DNA of 64,000 nt from Capitulum mitella. Lineage: Eukaryota; Arthropoda; Thecostraca; Pollicipedomorpha; Pollicipedidae. The notes below the pieces were generated by a model, which was not told where the DNA came from, did not search any database, and saw nothing but the letters and a program-made list of their open reading frames with translations. The position numbers and the translations under genes are program-made. This document shows, piece by piece, positions 18,085 through 50,759 of this stretch. The DNA is taken from contig CP099841.1 of assembly GCA_030062745.1 (NCBI GenBank), forward strand, positions 29,391,398-29,455,397, given 5' to 3'. Every line of letters starts with the position of its first letter. Position 1 is the first letter of the stretch.

Positions 18085-19587
18085 CGGCAAACTCCTTGGA
18101 GATCCCCTTCGAAATTTCAGCATTCACATCAGGCTTTGCAGAACGGTCAGGTCGTGCACGAAAGCGCTGACCGCCGATGAAGAGCAGAACCATGCACTGA
18201 CGTACAAAACAACCATGAAAGAGACGGAGCGTTTGAGTGCTCCCAAATCACTGAGAGTCACGGAGAACTGATGGCAAAGCAAGAAGATCTTGATCCCGCA
18301 GATTATGCGCCCCATCCATCTGGCGCGATGGAACCATCTATCTGGCACGTTGGAGAGCACCTGGCTGGGGAACTTGATTCCCCGTGGAGGCTGTTGACCA
18401 AAGGGGATAATCGAGACCTCAAAGAACGACGATAATCATCGCTAGGCTGGATTTCGGCGAGCTTCTCACGGCAGAAGGCGACGAAACGATCATTGGAAGA
18501 GAAAAACGTCTCGGCCACTGCTGGCTCCAGGTCTTCATACACCATAGGTTCAAACTTGTTCCAATCAATGAGCCTCCATCTCTTCTCGAAGCTCTTGAAC
18601 AAGGAGATCGCGGTCCCGAGGACGGACCGAAGCGCGTGGAGAAAGCCGCCTCTGCCACCAGTTCGACGATATGATGACGACAAGCAAAGTGAAAAGGCCG
18701 TCACTCAAGCCTCTGCTGAAGAAGCGTGTTTGCTCCCACAACTTGTCCAGTATTGCTGGAGGTGGTTGGGCGCCGAATGACCCTGCAGTCGGTGCGCCCC
18801 TAAGCCCCAATAACCAACCAACCAACCAGCTGGAGGTGGTGTCGAAGCTCATGCCGACGACGTTGTCCGAAACCTCTCAGTCTTCCAGACAAAGCGCGAC
18901 AACGTTGGCTGGCGTTGATCCGGCTCTACTTGCAACTTCCAAACACCGAAGAACTTGGCGGCACTTCTTGGACCGGTTACAATGACAGAGTCGATCCACC
19001 TTTTCCTTTCCATCGTCAGTAACAGTTTGCCGTCCCAGTGGACCACCAGGTTGGGTGGCGCGGAGAAAGAATGCTAGATTTCGTCCGCAATGGCTTTCCT
19101 CTGCGATCTACGTGCACGCCTGCCCGAGCTTCTGTGATCGCCAGTTCAGAGGAGTCGTGGCCGAGAACCGAAGCCGTCGCCGATAGGAAGTGAATTGCAG
19201 AGCGATCATTGAGCTTGGTCCGATCGAGGGCTGTTGCCTGACCAGGAGTGACGATGTTCTTGGCTCTCCTGCAGGACCGCTTCGAAGGCATGGCCATGGG
19301 CTGCGGGTCATCCTGATCTGTCAGTTGTGTGTTGTCGGTAGGCGAGTATTCCAGCTGGGCAGTTGCCTCATGCTCGGTCTGCTGTTTAATCTAACGGCGG
19401 GCCCTTTAAAGCTTCGGCCTACTGTTGTCGTTGAAGAGCTCGCTCCTCCTTCTCAGAAGGGAACTTATCGAATACCACCATGACGCCTCGGCGACCTGGC
19501 TCCCCTTGGGCCTAGAGAATGTGTTTATCCTCTTGGTTTTGATGATCTTAATGGTGCCGACAAGGGCAAGGTCAAAAAGATTGTTAA

Positions 19588-20798
19588 CCCTTTTCCCGGC
19601 AGGGGGGGGGGAATCCGCCCCCCCCTCGGGTTTTTTGCTTGCCAATTCCAGGCTTTTTAACGCAGCTTCACGAAACTTGGTCACTTTTCCTAGCTATTCC
19701 TTCTACGCGCCGTGACAAAATTTTGAAATTCTGTTTTGCTCAGGGGCGGAGCCAGGCAACGTTTTTGGGAGGCACCTCATGCCATTTTTGGCCATGTTGA
19801 GGGTAAAAGGAAAATGCCTGCCAAAAACAGAGTTTTTAAGATAGAACTTAAAACTTTATATGAATGTATAGCTAAATAGTTGGGCAATGTGCACATGTAA
19901 TTTTGTTTATCTGAGGTCAATTTACAAGGTCAGGTTAAGGTCAAAGTTAACATTTGTTTTTTCGCAATAATTTCGGCGCCGTTTTCTCAAATGCCAAACC
20001 CGGAACAAATATGACGCAGAAGGGTGCCCTCTACTTGTGTACCAAGTTTCAGCTCGATATCAGGTCGGATCACGGAGCTATGATCTAAAATGTCAGTGCG
20101 CGTACCCTATATCGCAAAAGCCAAAAAATGAATTTTTTGGAATAGAGTGAATTCAATCGATTAAAAACGTTTACAGATAATCTTGAATGCACACGACATC
20201 ATTCCAGGTGACTCCAAGGTCACTGGAGGTCATTTAAGGTCAAAGGTCACAAGTTGATCTGAAGAACGTGTGACCATGACAGTTCCCCCTTTTTTATGTC
20301 CCTGGCACCGCCTATGCTAACATTATACAAAGATTGTAATGCGGTTTGTACTTCTTTAGCATAACATGACTAGCAGAAGCTAAAAACAGTGTTTTGGCCT
20401 CTTTTGTTCATTCAGTTATTAGAAAACTAATCCCCCTATTTTTAAAACCCTGTGAACGCCCATGAATTTTTTTCAAAATTTCAAATTTGCATACCCATGG
20501 TAAAAGCCCTATCCATAATCTCTCGATTCATGCCAGTTTCATCAAAATCGGTCTATAAACAACGGAGTTATAAGAAGTCAAAAGTATCCCCCATTTTAAC
20601 CTTTTTGCCCCCCTGTATCCACAAATTTCGAAATTTTGAAAATTTCTTTTTATAAAAATGTAGCTCACGTCACGGCAAATCGATTGCCGTTTGTTGCGAT
20701 GAAATCGGATAAGTAGTTCTCGAGATCTCAGGGGGGGGGCCGAATCCGCCCCCCCCTGCCGGGAATCGGCCATACCGTCTAGCCCTCCGGGAATAGGG
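19588..20798 (+). mobile_element. TTAA-flanked MITE, copy 1 (piggyBac- or Kolobok-like, non-autonomous)
   Basis: 1211 bp flanked by TTAA at 19584-19587 and 20799-20802. The ends are inverted: CCCTTTTCCCGG at the left and CCGGGAATAGGG at the right. Subterminal G/C runs form GGGGGG-GGAATCC-GCCCCCC palindromes near both ends. No long open frame encodes a transposase. It is inserted in the decayed gene at 17525-21050. TTAA targets point to piggyBac or Kolobok superfamilies; which one cannot be settled here. Confidence 0.88.
20237..20249 (+). promoter_or_regulatory. Perfect DR1 nuclear-receptor motif in MITE copy 1
   Basis: Two AGGTCA half-sites separated by one A. Further AGGTCA half-sites lie just upstream (about 20215-20232) and near 19913-19945. 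DR1 sites are bound by RXR/USP or HNF4-type receptors in animals. Binding here is not shown. Confidence 0.5.
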
Positions 20799-21059
20799 TT
20801 AAGGTTGTCCCTAAATCCATTCTTCTTGTCAATTTCCGGGGTGAACCTCCAGAATTTGCCTTTGGTACTGGTCAAGCTTCCTGTTGAGCTTCTTTATCAC
20901 GTTCCGCGCCAGTGCAGTGAGAATACCGGCTTTGTTTCACACCTTCATCATTTCGCGGACGATCTGTGTTTTGACCTACCTCTGGGTAAGCCTATCCACA
21001 CGGTGGGACTGAAAATATTGCTGCTGCACTTCTCCCCGCGAAGGCAGTTCTGAGCACCG

Positions 21060-23260: not shown

Positions 23261-23701
23261 AAAAGCCTAAGCAGGCCCCCCGTCCCTTACCTCCTTCGCT
23301 ACGCCTGTGCCTACTTCTATGGTCCGTCTGGAGTTATGAAATAGTCCAGATATTCCTTCTGGGGTCATGAACTGTGCTTTGGTTTCTCGGTGCACAGACC
23401 ATGTTTGCAGGTGCGCAAATTTGGTCTGAGGGTACATGCGCAACCACGAAGAACTGTAAAGTTGCAACCCGCGCTTACGGCAAAACTTTTACTACGCGGA
23501 CTACACTTCCTGCAAACGGATTATTACGCATACGGAGAATTAGCAGTGCAAAAATTGGGCATACTGCGAATCCATTGCCTGCTACGGAACAAGGGTTTTC
23601 CCGATTTTGGAATTAATGATGAAGTATGGATGTAATCAAGGGGTCTCAAGAAACAAGGGTTCCTTACCGAAGAAAAATTGTACTTTTGCTCAAGGCCTTA
23701 A

Positions 23702-24911
23702 CCCTATTCCCGGCAGGGGGGGCGGAATCCGCCCCCCCTCGGGTTTTTTGCTTGCCAATTCCAGGCTTTTTGATGTAGCTTCACGAAACTTGGTGACTTT
23801 TCTTAGCTATTCCTTCTACGCGCCGTGACAAAATTTCGAAATTCTATTTTGCTCAGGGGCGGAGCCAGGCAACGTTTTTGGGAGGCACCTCAGGTCATTT
23901 TTGGCCATGTTGAGGGTAAAAGGAAAATGTCTGCCAAAAACAGAGTTTTTAAGATGGAACTTAAAACTTTATATGAATATATAGCTAAATAGTTGGGCAA
24001 TGTGCATATGTAATTTTGTTTATCTGAGGTCACTTTACAAGGTCAGGTCAAGGTCAAAAGTCAAAATTTGTTTTTTCGCCATAATTTCGGCGCCGTTTTT
24101 TTCAAATGCCAAACCCGGAATATATATGACGTAGAAAGATGCCCTCTACTTGTGTACCAAGTTTCAGCTTGATATCAGGTCAGGTCACGGAGCTATGACC
24201 TAAAATGTCAGTGCACGTACCATATATCGCAAAAGCCAAAAAATGAATTTTTTGCAATAGAGTGAATTTAATCGATTAAAAACGTTTACAGATAATACTG
24301 AATGCACACGAAATCATTCCAGGTGACCCCAAGGTCACTGGAGGTCATTTAAGGTCAAAGGTCGCAAGCTGATCTGAGAAACGTGTGACCATGACAGTTC
24401 CCCCTTTTTTATGTCCCTGGCACCGCCTATGCTAACATTATACAAACATTGTAATGCGATTTGTACTTCTTTAGCATAACATGACTAGCAGAAGCTAAAA
24501 AAGTGTTTTGGCCTCTTTTGTTCATGCAGTTGTTAGAAAACTAATCCTCCTATTTTTGAAACCCTGTGAACGCCCATGAATTTTCTCAAAATTTCAAATT
24601 TGCATACCCATGGTAAAAGCCCTATCCATAATCTCTCGATTCATGCCAGTTTCATCGAAATCGGTCCATAAACAACGGAGTTATAAGAAGTCAAAAAGTA
24701 CCCCCCATTTTGACATTTTTGCCCCCCTGTATCCACAAATTTCAAAATTTTGAAAATTTCTTTTTATAAAAATGTAGTTCACGTCACGGCAAATCGATTG
24801 CCGTTTGTTGCGATGAAATTGGATAAGTAGTTCTCGAGATCTCAGGGGGGGGCCGAATCCGCCCCCCCCTGCCGGGAATCGGCCATACCGTCTAGCCCTC
24901 CGGGAATAGGG
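23702..24911 (+). mobile_element. TTAA-flanked MITE, copy 2
   Basis: 1210 bp, about 90 percent or more identical to copy 1 by eye, with TTAA at 23698-23701 and 24912-24915. The inverted termini are perfect here: CCCTATTCCCGG at the left and CCGGGAATAGGG at the right. A near-perfect DR1 (AGGTCA-A-AGGTCG) lies at 24352-24364. Confidence 0.9.
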
Positions 24912-25232
24912 TTAAAAGAGCTCAAGGTTTTGTATTCTGCGGCCAGCTGGCGTAGCTGACGGGTCTTTCTTCTTCTTTTGTACCCTGTTGGCGCTGGGAG
25001 CCGAGATCGTGATCGGGCGGCGGGTGACCATGGAATTTTAGTGCCTTGGGTGACCATATGCAGGTGAGCCGTGAACTTGGTAAGGATGGTGGGTAAACAT
25101 TAATTAGCAATCGATTTTACGCTGTAAGAGGATCAAACCGGTCAGGCATTCCTTATCTGGTGAGGCCTAACAAAGCAATGATGACAACGTTTTCGTGACG
25201 TGCCATGGTTCTGGAGAGAATAATGGGGCAAA

Positions 25233-25603
25233 CCTTTAGAAGCGCACGCCATAAACCAAGCACACGGGATGACACATATACGGCGCGCGTGGCAAAAGGA
25301 GACGTCAGCTGTTGCGAGGAACAACAACATTATGCACTGGAGCTCCAGGTCGTAGATCACCTACTATGCGCTCTTGTTTTACACAGTAGGTTAGGTTAGG
25401 TTAGGTTAGGTTACGTTAGGTTAGGTTAGGTAAGGTAAGGTAAGGTTAGGTTAGGTTAGGTTAGCGAATAGTAGGTGATCCACGACCCTGGAGCTCCAGT
25501 GCTTAATGTTGTTGTTTCTCGCAACAGCTGACGTCTCCTTTTGCCACGCGCGCCGTATATGTGTCATCCAGTGTGCTTGGTTTATGGCGCACGCTTCTAA
25601 AGG
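25233..25603. repeat. Large inverted repeat with a TTAGG tract in the loop
   Basis: Left arm 25233-25373 and right arm 25463-25603 are reverse complements over about 141 bp with few mismatches; both contain GAGACGTCAGCTGTTGCGAG or its complement. The 89-bp spacer is an array of TTAGG pentamers with TTACG and TAAGG variants. The sequence could fold into a very stable hairpin. Confidence 0.92.
25386..25464 (+). repeat. Interstitial TTAGG telomere-type array
   Basis: About 15 pentamers of the arthropod telomere motif in the loop of the inverted repeat. No chromosome end is evident, as unique sequence continues on both sides. Confidence 0.92.
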
Positions 25604-26499
25604 ATTACCGAATAATGGGACATGTTCTATTGTTTAGACGTGCTTTAGGTCCATCATGAGGGCCAAAAATTGCTTAATAAATGTGAGAGATAATTCCCCT
25701 TCTTACGCTCCAAATTGCATTCTGCAATAGTATCTTAAAATATTTGGTTTGGGGGAAAGAGCACCTGGCCGAAAAAGGATTGTCTGCTCTGAATCACTGA
25801 ATTTTCCACTCCCTAAACCATAGGTAAGCTTTTGGATGTGCTGGTTCAGGGTTTTTGTGATCTGCCTGGATATGCTGGAATTGGGGTAATATGCTGGAAT
25901 TGGGGTACTGGATGTCTGGCCAGGTGCAGGATATTGTTATTTCTACTCACATTTTTTTTTGCTTCAAATGAAACAAAAGAATTGCAATGAAGAAAGTGAA
26001 CAAAGGTCTGAAAAAAACTGGAAAAATATTAACAAAAATGTTGACAGCCTATGAAACATTACTCCTACTGGCTAACAGTAAGTTTCTGCCCGACGAAATC
26101 GCAAACAACGCTTCGTATAATTGCCACCAATGTAAAGAATGTATCATCCTGTTTCTAACCGTACTTTCCACTACTTGATTTTCTAAACAATAACAACAAA
26201 ATCGTAACGATAACGCACAACACAGTAATATCGTGCTGCAGTCGGCTGGCGGAGAACAACATTATTCCGCGGCGGAAAATGTAGTGCCGCCAAGGTTAAG
26301 GTTATTGACATCAAGGACGTGTAGATCCTGCATGCATCTTCAAGCGATTAATGACGTCATATATAGGAAAATTCTATTCTGTTGCCAAAAACTGAACTTG
26401 GAGAAACTGCTGAATTATTACGCCGTTATATTATTGTATTAGATAATTGTTGGGATGTCTGATATCAGTATTATTACATTATGACATTTAATACTCGTT
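25604..26499. other. Unassigned stretch
   Basis: No gene recognised. A duplicated phrase ATGCTGGAATTGGGGTA occurs at about 25872-25908. Confidence 0.4.
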
Positions 26500-27085
26500 A
26501 GATTAGGTTGCTAGGTTGGGTTGTGCTGGGCTAGGTTAGATCAGGTTAGGTTAGGTTAGGTTAGGTTAGGCTAGGCTAGGTTAGGTTAGGTTAGGTTAGG
26601 TTAGGTTAGGTTAGGTTAAGTTACTATGTTAGGCTAGGGTAAATTTTTATTTATTGTTTTATTTCACTTCCTAATATTTTCCAGTTTTGTTCCGTGATTT
26701 CTTGTGCTGGGCTACGTTAGGTTAGGTTGGGTTAGGTTAGGTTAAATTAGGTCAGGCTAGGCTAGGCTAGGCTAGGCTAGGCTAGGTTAGGTTAGGTTAG
26801 GTTAGGTTAGGTTAGGTTAAGTTACTATGTTAGGCTAGGGTAAATTTTCATTTATTGTTTTATTTTACTTCCTAATATTTTCCAGTTTTGTTCCGTGATT
26901 TCTTGTGCTGGGCTACGTTAGGTTAGGTTAGGTTAGGTTAGGTTAGGTTAAGTTAGGTCAGGCTAGGCTAGGTTAGGTTAGGTTAGGTTAGGTTAGGTTT
27001 GGTTACTATGTTAGGCTAGGGTAAATTTTTATTTATTGTTTTATTTCACTTTCTAATATTTTCCAGTTTTGTTCCGTGATTTTTT
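26500..27085 (+). repeat. Three-copy higher-order repeat containing TTAGG arrays
   Basis: Three units start near 26520, 26701 and 26902 (periods about 181 and 201 bp). Each has CTTGTGCTGGGCTA, then a TTAGG array with GGCTA variants, then TTACTATGTTAGGCTAGGG and an AT-rich tail ending TTCCAGTTTTGTTCCGTGATT. The pentamer array expands and contracts between units while the tail stays conserved. Confidence 0.9.
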
Positions 27086-27185
27086 TCAGATATTTCATTT
27101 CACTGCTTTTTGTTTTTTCTGTATTTTTCAAATTGGAACTACGCTTTGCCGTCTTTGTAATATTTTTACTTTTTTATTATTCTTG

Positions 27186-27246
27186 TTTATTATTATTATT
27201 ATTATTATTACCGGTATTATTACTATTATTATTACTATTATTATTT
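27186..27246. repeat. TTA trinucleotide microsatellite
   Basis: About 20 units with ACC and ACT interruptions. Confidence 0.9.
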
Positions 27247-29949: not shown

Positions 29950-32900
29950 GTAAGAGTGGCAGGGTAGTGTGATACATGTTGTGTGTCCTAAATCTAATTG
30001 CATGATGATCATTTTGTGCCATTCCAGTTTCTTATGGTGGCACATCGTTGTTGTGTTGTGTAAACTATAAACAGTCCCAGGTGTTTTCATTAGTATCACC
30101 TCAGTATTGTGCTGTGCATACTGGGATTTTTATGAACTTTGGCACACCTGTGCAGTGGCTGTGTTATAACAGTGCCATTGTTTTAATGTTGCTGATATTT
30201 ATATATGGCTATATATTGTTTATGGCTGACTGTTTGAACGTGGCTATTTGGCAGCTGTACGTTCGTTATAGAAATGTTTCGTTTTCGGAAAAAGTTCACC
30301 AGATGAACGAAATTATGGTGCTAAATTCTCAGATTTTTTTGGATTCTTTTGGATTCTCCAGAAGCGCAACAATTACGACTAATGAAAAATCGTGCGAACC
30401 TAACGCGCCGATTGGAACGCAGTGCGGAACTTCTGCCAGCGTTCATTGGACTGGTCCGCCCGCGTCGTCACGTAACTGATGATAGTGGGCCACGGATGAA
30501 TAAAACAGGAAACTGGAGAGAAATCACTTTTTCATCGGTCATCACAAATCACGAAATATAAAGTCAGTGCATTTTGGAAATAAGTTTCAAAGGCTGCAGG
30601 GTTCAAAAAAGGGTAACAGTGGAACATTGCCCACACCCTCATCAGTATTTGCGATTTTGCCACGGTTAGGTGAGAAGGGGGGATTTCAGGTGCCCCAGTT
30701 CTTTCCAGACGTAACTTGGTGAAACGGCGAAACAGCGAACTTGTAGCTGGACATATTTTGGTGCACGATGACAGGGGCTTATTCGGCTCCATTAAGATCT
30801 CGGGTGCTTACGAATTTATTGTAAGTTCGTTGGTTGTGATCCTTTGGTTCGTGAACAGTGATCCATTGCGTGTTATCGCTTGTCCCGTTGTCCGTTTTCG
30901 GTACTGTCAGATGCGCATTGAGACAGAGATAGCTCATGCACGAGGTGATAATGATTGCTTCGTTATTTCAGCCACAGTGGCGTAAAGGATTGGTATATTG
31001 CACTGGCGGTGATATTGCATTTCATGGTAAATTGAAAAATCCGGACCATGTGGGCAGACTGCCGATATTTGATGAATATATGCAAAGAGATCCAATATTT
31101 TGATGAACCTTACGAGGGAAAAGTGTGAGATGCGAAATATCCTGAACCGGAACTTTCCAATAAGATTAAAAGCAAATTAAAGAAACACAAATTAGTCATA
31201 AATAGGGATGGGTGCTCAGTCGCATGTGGATCTGCACGTGCGTAAACGTGAAGGCAAAAATTGCAACGTTGTGCGGTAAAATCGCTGCGCTGTTTGGTCG
31301 GCGCCAACTGTTGTGACTTCTCGTCACTTCGACTTTCATGTCTCTGTAAGCACTGTGACATAAAGCAGAACTGAGGTACGAAATCAACGTCATGCACTCT
31401 AACCTAAGGTCTGAAGCAGTTATTTTTCTTGATTCGGACCACTTCCCGAGGTGTACCCAATGAATACCGCTTTAATTCGTTAGTCTGCGGTGCAAGCCGT
31501 CGAACGTCAGCAAATGACCTGCGTTGCGTCATCATAAGGCCAGTTGAGATTTTTTTTACTTTTATTTACGACATTTTTGGACGTTTGCAGATGCTTCTCA
31601 GAAACATGAGTGGAGGATTGTAATACCAGAGGCCAGATATGTTTATCATTGCCAGTAAACTATACCAATCCTTTACGCCACTAGCTGAACTAGACAAGCA
31701 ACCATTATCATCTCGTGTATGAGCCACCACTGCTTCGTCGCGCCTCTCGCAGTAACGAAATCAGCAGATGAGAAAAAGTGTTCTGTGTAAGCCGATATCC
31801 GGTTCTCGGCACCGGAGGACGCTGCTGGGCGTCGCCGGAATCGACCGCAGCTCCAAAGTTAACCGTAATAACTTTTTCGAGTATCATCAAGAGCTATTTC
31901 ATTAGCCAAGTATCATCTTGAAATTTTCAGCTTCCTCTTAGCGGATATCAGTGGCTATGCGCGCAAAATTCCATGCAGTTCCGATCAGCGAATCAAGTTA
32001 GATGGGGCGTTTTTAGAACCCTCGACCGGTGCGAAAGTGGCTCTGGCGTCCAGCAATGCGAGGGTTAAGCTACTGAAGCCCAAGATACAAAAAATGTTGC
32101 AAACCCCTCGATTGTGGTATGAAAGTCTGTCACATTCCCCTGATGTGCCATGATTTTTCGAAAATTGTATTTTCGAATATTCATGATTTTTTGCATGAGA
32201 ACTTTTGTGACACACGGGCTCTAAAGTAACACAAATCTGCAGAATTATGTCATTTTTTGTAAAAGTCACCGTTTCTCATATTTCGATACGGTGCTTCACG
32301 AATGCCTCACTTGGTATTGCGAATCAGATTCTGCACACGTGGCACACATATCAAAAGTCATCTTGGTTCCGATCCCTTCCAGATTATCAGAACCTGATTC
32401 GGCATGGAAAAACATTTACAAATGGCTTACTGTATATTTCGAGGAAGGTATCAGATACTAACATGAAAAAACGTTTGTGCCTCTATGTTGTGCATGGCAC
32501 AGGCGCACACTTCGGAAAACTAGCTCTATATTACAATAATTCCGGAAACGAAAACAAATTGTTAACGCCTCACTGGTGGGGACGGGGCAAAAATTGCCCA
32601 ACCCCTCTTTTTTGCGCGTAACACCTGCGCTAGTACAACGAGCGCTGAGATTTTGTTTGTCTGCTGAAAGGTTCTTGCACATCTTTTGTCATTTGAAGTT
32701 TTAAACTCGGTTCTTTACGTTTTTCAACCAAACCCCGAACACTCTGCTTGGCTTGAATGCTATTTCGCCAACAGCTTTAACATCTGATTTGTATGGATCT
32801 TCACCACAGCTTTGGAAACTTAAGTGATGAAAATTCCAACTGAATGACAAATATTCAGTTAACGGTGTGCAAGTTTTCGGTACGATATGTACATCCATTT

Positions 32901-35603
32901 CATTCCAACGTGCAGTTTTATGAAAGTCTTCCCCAACCACCAAGGAAAGTGTTTCGCGACCAATGCCATGTTATTTCAGAACGTCAGTATTGGTCGTTTT
33001 TCCCTCCCCTCGTAGGCCAGGCCTTGCGTAAGCAACTACAACCTAGGCCCTTCTAACATCATGAGTTTTGCAGTGTTCGTTTGTAGTCAAAGGCAGCCAC
33101 ATGCTACGTGTACGAGCCCATGTAAAGTGCAAACAGATAGACTTACGGCTTTTTGGAAATAGGAAGGCGGCACGCTCTGACCTCCCCCTGTCTCTCTCTC
33201 TTCCCATCCAAAAGCCGTTTCTGTGATAGATAGGCAGTTGCAAGCAAACGAATACGCACGTCACGGAACAAATCAAACATTTGTTTGACATGCAGCCGAT
33301 TTTGGGTCTTGTCACTGAGACATTACCCATGAACTTTGCCCCGTTTTCGGAATGGTGGGGACAGCGGCCGTGTCCTGTCAGGCGCGCGGCATGCTATCGG
33401 GAATACCGTGCTATTCTGCGTACAGCATTTCTAGTAATGTAAAATAGGTATATTTATTTTGCATTATTGGAACCAATGATCTGAATCGTGTTATGTATAC
33501 CTATGTTATGTAAAAGGGTCTTAGATTTTGTTTTTTATTACAAATAATGCATGTTTTTCTAATATTTACCGAAACTTCTATACATGGAAGGCAGTTACCG
33601 AGCTAGGAAGACCCCGCGCGCTGTTCATGGGTCATTATGGTGCAGTACTAGGGTAAAATGGTGAAATGTAAAAATGGTGAACGCCTTTGTTGCGAATGCT
33701 AGATGGCGAACGCTAAATGACGACATGTAAAAATGGCGACATGCTAAAATGACGAACGGACAAATGGCGAAGGCGGCGAAGGCGAACCATTTGGCCAGTC
33801 GCCATTGTAATGTGTCGCCATTTTTACATGTCTCCCTTTAGCATTCGCCATCCGGCATTCGCCAAAAAGGCATTCGCCATTTTTACGTTTCGCCATTTTG
33901 TCCGGACACCGTGTGGTACGGTGGTGATAGATGTTTATCAGTAAGATATATTTAGGTGTAATCAGTTACAGAGCACAAATCAGAAAAAACAGCTTCCATC
34001 CGCGGCGTGTTGAAACGTTGGTAACGAAACCTATAGGTTGTCACGCTTGTTCGGTACGACGTGGCTTGACCGTGTTTTCTTACCATGTTTTCTGCTATAG
34101 TTGTTTAAAATGTCACCGACTAGGTCCATTTGTTCTGTACATGCTCTGTTGGTTTTCAGCAACTGCAGGCGACTGGATATTCTAGCGGACAAAGAACCAG
34201 TACAGAGGCGGCATATTGCCAAGCAGCGTGTGAATCAACTCAAGTATGATTGTCAGCACCTCCAGGTATGCTCAAAGATGGCAGTGTAATACACTCTTCG
34301 TTGGCTCGTTGCATGTCCTATGCGCTTTGAATGCCGTCATGTTTCTTTGGATGTCTTTGCTTGTGTTATCATATCTTGTCCTTTTTAGTCATTTTTAGTG
34401 TTTTGCTCATTTCATCATGCATATTGTTGGTCACATTTCCATGATTGGTACGGAAATCACCTCGGCTCCGTTCAATGTTTTTCTTTTTCCGTTTTTGGTC
34501 CTGACGCTGTCGATCTCCATGCTCTCTGGAGGGCAAAGACCACGGTCTTCCATCGTTTATAAATTGTGCCAGCCACATGCCGCTCTCCACCGCTATTGTC
34601 TGTGAGCGACGGCCATCTGTTTTGACCGCGTGCCGTTTTGTTTTCTGTCCGCCAGTCGGCGCTGCGGGCCCTGCAGCACAGACGCATGGCGCGCGAGCAG
34701 GAGCGGCTGGAGCGGGAACAGCTGCTGTCGCAGCGCTTCACGGCCAACGACCAGACGGACACCAGTATCGCCATCGACGCAGCGCTGCAGATGAACGACC
34801 GGCTGCAGGTGATCTGCCTTCCTCGTTCGTAGTGGCACCGATAATGTCTCGCATTGTGGGCTTGAAAGATATTTCCGTCTCAACTGGGGCCCCAGGCGCC
34901 AGTTGTGACGGACATCAGGCGCAGACAGGAAATGGGTTTATATTAAAACTAAACTGTATCAAACTGCGTAGTAGTATGCCATGTGTCTTTTAATGGTTCG
35001 AACACGGCTCATTGCGGACTGGCGGGTAGCATTGTCTAGACTGGGGTATTATTGACAGTCTCTCAGCTGCATACATCGTGGTCTCGTGTTTTGACAGATG
35101 ATGTCGTCCTGCGTTGTACTCACTGGCCAAAGTGAATACAGTGAATAATAATAAATATAGTGAATAACAATAGCCAAAGTCACAGCCTTTATAAGTCGTT
35201 GCCGCATTGTTGGGGTTTTGTTTGGGCTGCGAATCGTCGAGAATAGGATACAGGCGGAACGGGCCGTTGCCAGCCGGTCAGAGTAGGCGGTGATGTTGCC
35301 GAGTTTGCCGGCTGTTGCCCGACACGGGGCCACGATTGACCGCCCGGCGGTTGGCAGAACTCGCACCGCGGCATGGACGACCTGCTGGGAATCGGCAGCT
35401 CTGTGCTGCTGAGCCTGCAGGACCAGCGGGGCGTGCTGAAGGGCGCGCGTCGCCGCATGCTCGACCTGGCCAACACGCTCGGCATGTCAAACACCGTGAT
35501 GCGGCTGATCGAGCGGCGCACCTACCAGGACAAGTTCGTGCTGTTCGGCGGCATGCTGGCCACGCTGCTGGTCATGTACCTCGGCTGGCGGTACCTGACC
35601 TGA
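29813..35603 (+). CDS. GOSR2: Membrin (Golgi SNAP receptor complex member 2), complete four-exon gene
   Basis: Membrin is a Qb-SNARE that drives fusion of ER-derived vesicles at the cis-Golgi and traffic within the Golgi. Exons 29813-29949, 34160-34265, 34656-34808 and 35358-35603 join in frame to give 213 residues; the vertebrate protein has about 212. The N-terminal helical part contains LYHQTNGLVQETQS and DILADKEPVQRRHIAKQRV, then LKYDCQHLQ. The SNARE motif carries LLSLQDQRGVLKGARRRML, with a glutamine at the expected zero layer, followed by LGMSNTVMRLIERRTYQDK. The C-terminal anchor is FVLFGGMLATLLVMYLGW, ending YLT. Exons 3 and 4 are GC-rich, unlike exon 1. Introns of 4.2 kb, 390 bp and 549 bp all have GT-AG ends. 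The first ATG is the family start. The gene appears functional. Confidence 0.97.
30900..31755. repeat. Fold-back element: ~106-bp inverted arms around ~640 bp
   Basis: Left arm 30900-31007 and right arm 31650-31755 are imperfect reverse complements. Both hold GTGGCGTAAAGGATTGGTAT and CTCAT(G/A)CACGAG(G/A)TGATAATG. The interior has no open frame of note. It is consistent with a non-autonomous DNA transposon, but target duplications were not found. Confidence 0.75.
33653..33903. repeat. Palindromic cluster of AATGGCGA / TCGCCATT words
   Basis: The left half (about 33653-33795) repeats words such as AAAATGGCGA; the right half (about 33800-33903) repeats their complements such as TCGCCATTTTTAC. 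The two halves could fold together over about 100 bp with bulges. Confidence 0.8.
34160..34265 (+). CDS. GOSR2: Membrin exon 2
   Basis: 106 bp after a GGTTTTCAG acceptor. It encodes NCRRLDILADKEPVQRRHIA and then KQRVNQLKYDCQHLQ, ending in phase 0 at a GTATG donor. Confidence 0.95.
34266..34655. other. Membrin intron 2, nothing recognised
   Basis: 390 bp with GT and AG ends and a T-rich 3' tract; no other feature seen. Confidence 0.7.
34656..34808 (+). CDS. GOSR2: Membrin exon 3
   Basis: 153 bp, phase 0 at both ends. It encodes SALRALQHRRMAREQERLER and then EQLLSQRFTANDQTDTSIAI, ending DAALQMNDRLQ. The LLSQRFTANDQTDT segment matches the family's LLSRTFTTNDSDTT segment. Confidence 0.95.
34809..35357. 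other. Membrin intron 3, nothing recognised
   Basis: 549 bp with a small AATA-rich repeat near 35140-35165; no other feature. Confidence 0.6.
35358..35603 (+). CDS. GOSR2: Membrin exon 4: SNARE motif and membrane anchor
   Basis: 246 bp after a GGTTGGCAG acceptor, ending in TGA. It encodes NSHRGMDDLLGIGSSVLLSL, the SNARE heptads, LANTLGMSNTVMRLIERR and the hydrophobic tail. No poly(A) signal was identified close by. Confidence 0.95.
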   Translation, partial: NSHRGMDDLLGIGSSVLLSLQDQRGVLKGARRRMLDLANTLGMSNTVMRLIERRTYQDKFVLFGGMLATLLVMYLGWRYLT

Positions 35604-41229: not shown

Positions 41230-42095
41230 GGCCCTCTAAGTTGGTCCGAACTCTGTCAGGGGCATGCCGGGTCCATTTCGCGAGGCCCCTTAAAAGCTGT
41301 GAGTTCCCGGTCCCTGGGTCACTTTTGAGCGTAATTCACGCAAGGCCCCCTTACGAATGGATGCTGGGGCGCCCCCGAGGCCCGGACTGGTTTAGCGAAG
41401 ACCCCCTGGGTCCGATTTATGGGGCCTCTCGAAAAGCTGTAGGTTCCCGGGCCCTGTTTTGCTTTTGAGTGATAATCGGTACGAGGCACTCTTTCGGACC
41501 TAAGCCGGGGTCTTCCCTAGCAAGGTTTGAACCCCGGCTTAGCGCAGGCCACCTTGGTTCATCAATTCTGTGAGGCTGCTGAAAATTGTGAGGTTCTGGT
41601 CGCTGGACCACCTTTGAGAGTAATCGGTACGAGGCCCCTATTCGGACCTAAGCCGGGGCCCCTAGCAGGGTTCGAACCCTGGTTCAGTGCAGGCCAGCCC
41701 TGTCGATGAATTCTGTGAGGTCCCCCTGAAAATTGTGAGGTCCTGGTGACTGAACCACCTTTGAGTGTAATCGGTACGAGGCCCTTTCTCGGACCTAAGC
41801 CGGAGCCCCCTAACAGGGTTTGAACGTCGGTTCAGCGCAGGCCACCCCAGTCTATTAATTCTGAGGCCCCTGAAAATTATGACTCCTGGTCGCTGGACAA
41901 CCTCGGAGTGCAATCAACACGAGGTCCTCTATTGGATCAAAACCGAGCTCTCTAGCAGGGACCGAGCTGTGTGTCGGGGTGGGCCAGCCGGGTCCATTCC
42001 GCGAGGCCCCTTAAAAATTGTAAGTTCGCGGTCTCTGACCAGTTTTGGGTCCAACCTGTTCGAGGTCCTTACCAGAAGGAAGCTGAGACCCCTAA
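41230..42095. repeat. ~147-bp satellite, about six diverged copies
   Basis: The phrase CGGACCTAAGCCGG recurs at about 41495, 41643 and 41789 (period 146-148). Flanking copies are more diverged, keeping AATTGTGAGGTCCTGGTC and AATCGGTACGAGGCCC. Each central unit holds GGTTTGAAC or GGTTCGAACCC, like a tRNA B box. Confidence 0.85.
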
Positions 42096-49212: not shown

Positions 49213-50422
49213 GCCAGTAATTCCCGGAGCGCTAGACGGTATGGTCGATTTCCGGCAGGGGGGGCGGATTCCGCCCCCCCCCCCGAGATCTCGAGAACTA
49301 CACATCCGATTTCATTGCAACAAACGGCAATCAATTTGCCATGACGTGAACTACATTTTTATAAAAAGAAATCTCAAAAATTTTTAAATGTATCGATACA
49401 GGGGACAAAAATGTCAAAATCTGGGGTATTTTTGGACTTCTTTTAACTCCGTTGTTTATAGACCGATTTCGATGAAACTAGCATGAATCGAGAGATTATG
49501 GATGGGGCTTTTACTTTGGGTATACAAATCTGGAATTTTGAGAAAATTCATGGGCGTTCACATGGTTTCAAGTATAGCAGGATTAGTTTTCTAACAAATG
49601 AATGAACAAAAGAGGCAAAAACACTTTTTTGGCTTCTGCTAGTCATGTTATGCTAAAGAAGTACAAATCGCATCACAATGTTTGTATAATGTTAGCATAG
49701 GCGGTGCCAGGGACATGAAAAAAGGGAACTGTCATGGTCATACGTTCTTCAGATCAACTTATGACCTTTGACCTTAAATGGCCTCCAGTGTTGGGATCAC
49801 TTGGAATGATGTCGTGTTCACTTAATATTATCTGTAAACGTTTTCGGTCATTTGAATTCACTCTATTTGAAAAATTTTATTTTATGGCTATTGCGATATA
49901 GGGTATGCGCACTGACATTTTAGGTCATAGCTCCGTGACCCGACCTGATATCACGCTGAAACTTGTTGCACAGGTAGAGGGCATTGTTCTACGTCATGTG
50001 TATTTCCGTGTTTGGCATTTGAAAAAACGGCGCCGAAATTATTGCAAAAAAACAAATTTTGACTTTTGACCTTGACCTGATCTTGTAAAGTGACCTCAGA
50101 TGAACAAAATTACAACTGCACATTGCCGAACTATTTACCTATACATGCATATAAGGTTTTAAGTTCTATCTTAAAAACTCTGTTTTTGGCAGACATTTTC
50201 CTTTTACCCTGAACATGGCCAAAAATGGCCTGAGGTTCCTCCCAAAAACTTTGCCTGGCTCCGCCCCTCAGCAAAGCGGAATTTTGAAATTTTGTCACGG
50301 TGCGTAGAAAGAATAGCTAGGAAAAGTCACCAATTTTCGTGAAGCTGCGTTAAAAAGCCTGAAATTGCCAGGCAAGAAACCCGAGGAGGCGGGGCGCATT
50401 GAGCCCCCTGCCGGGAATAGGG
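49213..50422 (-). mobile_element. TTAA-type MITE, copy 3, inverted and more diverged
   Basis: The reverse complement aligns along its length with copies 1 and 2. The right end CCGGGAATAGGG is intact and is followed by TTGA, a decayed TTAA. The left end has lost the first bases (AATTCCCGGAGCGCTAGACGG). A perfect DR1 lies at 49762-49774 as TGACCTTTGACCT. Confidence 0.88.
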
Positions 50423-50759
50423 TTGAATAATTTCTTTCAGTTCTGTGAGGGGAAGTGTCAGAGGAACAGCGATTTCCTAAACCGGACGCATATTTCTATA
50501 TTAACCCTGTACATGATACACTGTATGGCAAAAAAAAACGCAAAATACCTCCCCAAAATAAAACCAAATAAACGCAAAATATCTCTCCAATTCTACCCAG
50601 CCGTTCGTGGATTTTTCCGCCACATTAACCTTCCCCCGTTTTTTTTTTTTATTTTCTGCCCTTCCTATCTTTAATTTTTTATGCCTTTTATGCAGTTTTA
50701 TGCCTAGATTTGCCATTCACCCACGAAATAAACCAGCGAGATAAAGCTGGAACCTAGAT

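Follow-up and report, generated by a model that had tools for sequence, protein, structure and literature searches.

Introduction

TTAGG is the telomere motif of arthropods, and a TTAGG tract lying within a chromosome can be read as the trace of a chromosome fusion or of telomere healing. In the 64-kb stretch of DNA analyzed here (the window), such an array sits between two long inverted arms, raising the question of how telomere-type repeats came to occupy the loop of a hairpin. A sequence-only reading of this locus had offered three origins: telomere-mediated repair, a fold-back element, and the fusion of an inverted duplication where a break had healed. At a probability of roughly 0.85, we consider the locus to be a 383-bp non-autonomous fold-back (MITE-type) DNA transposon, with ends of 146 and 147 bp, a 9-bp duplication, and a (TTAGG)n filler, which would be mobilized in trans. 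An array inside an apparent transposon would offer a simple alternative source of interstitial TTAGG, and this source can be checked for genome-wide in any arthropod assembly.

Results

Two inverted arms form a hairpin

Of the 147 columns in the alignment of the two arms (Table 1), 137 match, 9 are mismatched, and 1 is a gap; a blastn self-comparison returned identical ends, 25227 and 25609, at an arm identity of 93.2%. Within the 64-kb window, exact inverted runs with starts fewer than 600 bases apart reach 52 nt, compared with maxima of 11–14 nt in all 20 single-base shuffles preserving base composition. Folding of the strand 25219–25616 as DNA gave −169.4 kcal/mol, against −49.9 ± 4.4 kcal/mol for shuffled sequences (z = −26.9; n = 100 dinucleotide shuffles). 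On both the inverted run and the fold energy, the hairpin is therefore not due to chance. It is real, as is the telomere-type array in its loop, both of which the sequence-only reading had described; the arms extend slightly beyond the 141 bp it had given them. Across six frames, the longest stop-to-stop frame of the element is 56 codons, and the element thus carries no transposase gene. A search of the left arm for direct repeats (seed 6, length 9) returned 0 families, so it has no subterminal tandem repeats at these settings.

Table 1. Features of the hairpin locus, in window coordinates
Feature	Position	Strand	Basis
Whole element, 383 bp, non-coding	25227..25609	.	Arm-alignment ends, frame lengths, blastn self-match
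Left target site duplication (putative), GAATAATGG	25218..25226	+	Exact match to 25610–25618; 9-bp register 16/18
Left terminal inverted repeat, starts GGCAAACCTTTAGAAGCG	25227..25372	+	137/147 columns identical to right arm
Unique loop bases (14) from left arm to array	25373..25386	+	Sequence
(TTAGG)n array, 15.6 units, variants TACGT (one) and AAGGT (three, consecutive)	25387..25464	+	Tandem Repeats Finder and unit reading
Right terminal inverted repeat; reverse complement starts GGTAATCCTTTAGAAGCG	25463..25609	-	Arm alignment and blastn
Right target site duplication (putative), GAATAATGG	25610..25618	+	Direct repeat and register test

The loop array runs in one direction

Between the arms lie 90 bases (25373–25462), consisting mostly of (TTAGG)n in one direction: on the + strand, the loop contains 10 TTAGG and 0 CCTAA. 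Tandem Repeats Finder reported the array as (TAGGT)15.6 with 94% matches, its final two bases being shared with the beginning of the right arm. Divided into pentamers starting at 25387, it consists of 5 TAGGT, 1 TACGT, 3 TAGGT, 3 AAGGT, 3 TAGGT, and a partial TAG. The three AAGGT in a row suggest that a mutated unit was locally duplicated, by slippage or unequal exchange. The array looks like a microsatellite, because three identical variant units are consecutive and because a second cluster of TTAGG is present 1.1 kb away. It is most likely a passenger without a telomere role, as its sequence gives no reason to invoke one. Repeats of this kind are described elsewhere in crustaceans: the cited portion of a Penaeus monodon fosmid-end survey lists AACCT/TTAGG as a particularly abundant microsatellite in shrimp, with 131 loci (PMC3124438), and that of a crayfish FISH study places interstitial TTAGG on eight chromosome pairs (PMC7859515).

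The second cluster, detected by Tandem Repeats Finder at 26532–27005, lies downstream of the hairpin, and TTAGG tracts are therefore not peculiar to the hairpin in this stretch. Around it, 26492–27090 is built of a tandem unit of approximately 180–200 bp in almost three copies, each carrying a TTAGG array together with GGCTA variants. This region contains 16 GGCTA, and the variants in the hairpin loop are AAGGT and TACGT; given that the variant units differ, recent exchange between the two arrays appears unlikely. No target duplication was found around 26492–27090: a search for direct repeats of at least 8 bases between 26380–26529 and 27060–27199 returned nothing beyond 8-base matches of TATTATTA within a TTA-rich tract.

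The hairpin ends in register at a 9-bp duplication

The 10-bp sequence GAATAATGGG occurs exactly at 25218 and again at 25610, and no direct repeat shared by the stretches compared, 25160–25261 and 25570–25669, is longer. The phrase shared by the outer flanks had already been suggested to be a target duplication, which holds for 9 of these 10 bases: a 9-bp target site duplication plus one base is the best reading of the repeat. With a 9-bp duplication, the two ends (GGCAAACCTTTAGAAGCG on the left and GGTAATCCTTTAGAAGCG on the right, read on the other strand) agree at 16 of 18 positions in register, and both begin with 5'-GG; with 7 or 8 bp, agreement is only 5/18 and 7/18, respectively. A 10-bp target duplication was also considered and rejected, as it leaves the ends out of register (7/18). 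The tenth base of the repeat is explained because the first G of the element meets a G of the flank.

To judge how often such a repeat arises by chance, we drew random samples of the window. With the offset fixed, 14 of 200,000 samples contained a 9-mer match. In a looser control, which included tandem-repeat regions and accepted any position up to 15 bases to either side of two points separated by 400 bp, 36 of 3000 samples gave a match of at least 9 bases. A repeat of 9 or more bases near two points is thus not a negligible chance event, and the repeat by itself is not what carries the argument; the register is. Each arm begins precisely where the direct repeat ends on its inner side. Beyond it, the flanks are asymmetric: 100 bases on the left compared with the inverted right flank gave a local score of 14, the median of 500 random window pairs, 263 of which scored at least as high.

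Inverted ends, an in-register duplication, symmetry that stops there, and no frame longer than 56 codons together form the structure of a non-autonomous cut-and-paste transposon of the fold-back type. From this one copy, we infer that the element is mobile. It would have inserted here, creating the 9-bp target site duplication, and a Mutator-like or Merlin cut-and-paste transposase would bind its inverted ends and move it in trans. Most likely, the pentamer array either originated within the element or was captured by it, and it would afterward have expanded and contracted by replication slippage.

Copies, domains, and other repeats in the window

By blastn self-comparison and an end pattern, the 64-kb window contains one copy of the element. 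The pattern, built from the two ends and allowing at most 3 mismatches, matched only those two ends in the window, and shuffles averaged 0.25 matches. Viral contigs contained no match to exact arm patterns of 18 and 26 bases, prokaryote genomes contained none to an exact 26-base pattern, and blastn of 25219–25616 found none among phages; these collections are unlikely to contain animal transposons, and their null results therefore say little. A search of Rfam at gathering scores returned 0 matches, and Pfam recognized 0 families in the 10 ORFs searched out of the 23 of at least 150 aa in the window. Among the titles and abstract openings of the papers listed from a literature collection that covers subscription journals in part, none described a foldback element or MITE with a TTAGG loop.

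The window holds further repeats. An element of approximately 1.2 kb occurs in three copies (19584–20802, 23698–24915, and, on the − strand, 49220–50424) with pairwise identities of 94.8%, 89.0%, and 88.1%; the first two copies start with TTAACCC and finish with GGGTTAA, and we take the element to be a putative TTAA-targeting, piggyBac-like non-autonomous transposon. A further hairpin at 33655–33899, with 113-nt arms that are 82% complementary and a 19-nt loop, consists of diverged ATGGCGAA-type repeats and lacks any TTAGG run reaching three units. At 30896–31760, an inverted pair (119 nt, 77%) surrounds 629 bp and is possibly a terminal-inverted-repeat element. Tandem repeats include a 25-bp unit (GGCCTACGTCAGTCCGGTCAGGTTC) in approximately 18 copies or more at 1924–2520, within ORFs open in all three + frames, and a 148-bp unit in approximately three copies at 41464–41915.

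Discussion

Alternative origins of the hairpin

Of the three origins proposed from the letters alone, the fold-back element is the one that the arms and the in-register 9-bp duplication favor; telomere-mediated repair and a fused inverted duplication where a break had healed are disfavored. Under telomere-mediated repair, a break healed with telomeric repeats, or a fusion of capped ends, would have left the TTAGG tract between the inverted arms. The arthropod telomere motif itself speaks for this, as does the precedent of interstitial TTAGG documented by FISH in the crayfish work cited above (PMC7859515). Fusion of telomeres, however, predicts TTAGG and CCTAA head to head, which the loop does not contain; a fused inverted duplication should not break off after 147 bp where a 9-bp target duplication lies; and three consecutive identical variant units would arise more easily by slippage than by telomerase. 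Break healing, telomere fusion, and a fused inverted duplication are disfavored because the array runs one way, because the symmetry ends at the 9-bp duplication, and because the flanks resemble random pairs, and we give this origin very little credence.

We find it marginally harder still to credit that a transposon entered a pre-existing TTAGG microsatellite or that such a microsatellite lies between two solo ends by chance. A second TTAGG tract is present nearby in the 26532–27005 cluster, and Mutator-like elements that target microsatellites are known, as the cited text on MuTAnT describes (PMC4486113). The array, however, sits within the inverted ends and not at the insertion junction, and the duplication at the junction is GAATAATGG, not a phase of TTAGG. 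The least probable account is an artefact of assembly or amplification. Chimeric fold-back reads are a known artefact type, but such a chimera should give near-identical arms that extend outward, and here the arms stop. The 10 of 147 columns at which the arms differ make an artefact unlikely, and the asymmetric loop and unrelated flanks likewise stand against it. The non-autonomous fold-back transposon remains our preferred reading; the finding of a single copy in the 64-kb window counts against it.

Possible Mutator-like or Merlin ancestry

Which superfamily would have supplied the transposase is a more evenly balanced matter. We put the chance that the element is a Mutator-like (MULE/Phantom-type foldback) derivative, rather than a Merlin one, at about even. 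In the cited description, Mutator-like elements typically have inverted ends longer than 100 bp and 8–10 bp duplications, with non-autonomous derivatives varying internally (PMC5225508), and both the 146/147-bp ends and the 9-bp duplication seen here fall within these limits. Of 53 complete elements of the Tm1 Mutator/Foldback family, 45 are reported with duplications of 8–10 bp, most commonly 9, and the mean end identity is given as 93.15% (PMC3169594), close to the 93.2% of our arms. Against this ancestry, the arm is without direct repeats, whereas the same cited mosquito study finds subterminal tandem repeats in 10 of 12 long-ended Mutator-like families, a feature that is common but not obligatory (PMC5225508); moreover, GG at both ends is the stated signature of Merlin.

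A Merlin-superfamily MITE is a tentative second choice, to which we lean less. Merlin elements are described as having inverted ends of 24–462 bp, a terminal 5'-GG, and 8- or 9-bp duplications (PMC8101967), a range and a set of features into which this element fits at both ends. Two conserved bases are nevertheless weak evidence, the same features are also compatible with Mutator-like elements, and the fit is one to described features, with no transposase seen.

Implications and comparison with known systems

The main value of this locus is a caution against taking interstitial TTAGG for repair scars, a caution to which one copy lends small weight. It would be a considerable step further to propose that a mobile fold-back family spreads TTAGG arrays, that many interstitial telomeric sites in arthropods are transposon cargo and not remnants of chromosome fusion or break repair, and that such arrays could serve as sites for telomere proteins; we consider this unlikely.

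Several described systems resemble the element in part; each is compared here through the cited portions of its description. With Muta1 of Aedes aegypti, it shares the length of its ends, which are 145 bp in Muta1, and a duplication size found in Muta1 and its derivatives (8 or 9 bp); unlike it, Muta1 carries 12-bp subterminal repeats in its ends, and none were found here (PMC5225508). MuTAnT of Medicago, a 292-bp element with 144-bp ends, also folds into a hairpin, but it targets TA repeats (PMC4486113). Tm1 of root-knot nematodes is similar in its duplications and mean end identity, as given above, and dissimilar in having composite ends of variable length with tandem repeats of approximately 14 bp and dissimilar terminal 7-bp motifs (PMC3169594). 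The likeness to Merlin, judged by description, lies in the 5'-GG ends, the duplication size, and an end length within range (PMC8101967). Tetris of Drosophila virilis is likewise a non-autonomous foldback element with 8–10 bp duplications and internal tandem repeats; its repeats are approximately 220 bp long and lie inside the arms, whereas here a pentamer array occupies the loop (PMC4079207).

For the combination of a transposon with a microsatellite, the nearest parallel is provided by the MITEs/MINEs of Lepidoptera with hitchhiking (GTCY)n microsatellites (Coates et al. 2011, as cited in PMC6947457, PMC4486113, and PMC9659126). As far as these citing papers describe them, they too are inverted-repeat MITEs bearing a microsatellite; they differ from the present element in that its unit is the telomere-type TTAGG and its arms occupy most of its length. 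Seen beside these systems, the hairpin most likely adds a single example to a type of element family that is already known.
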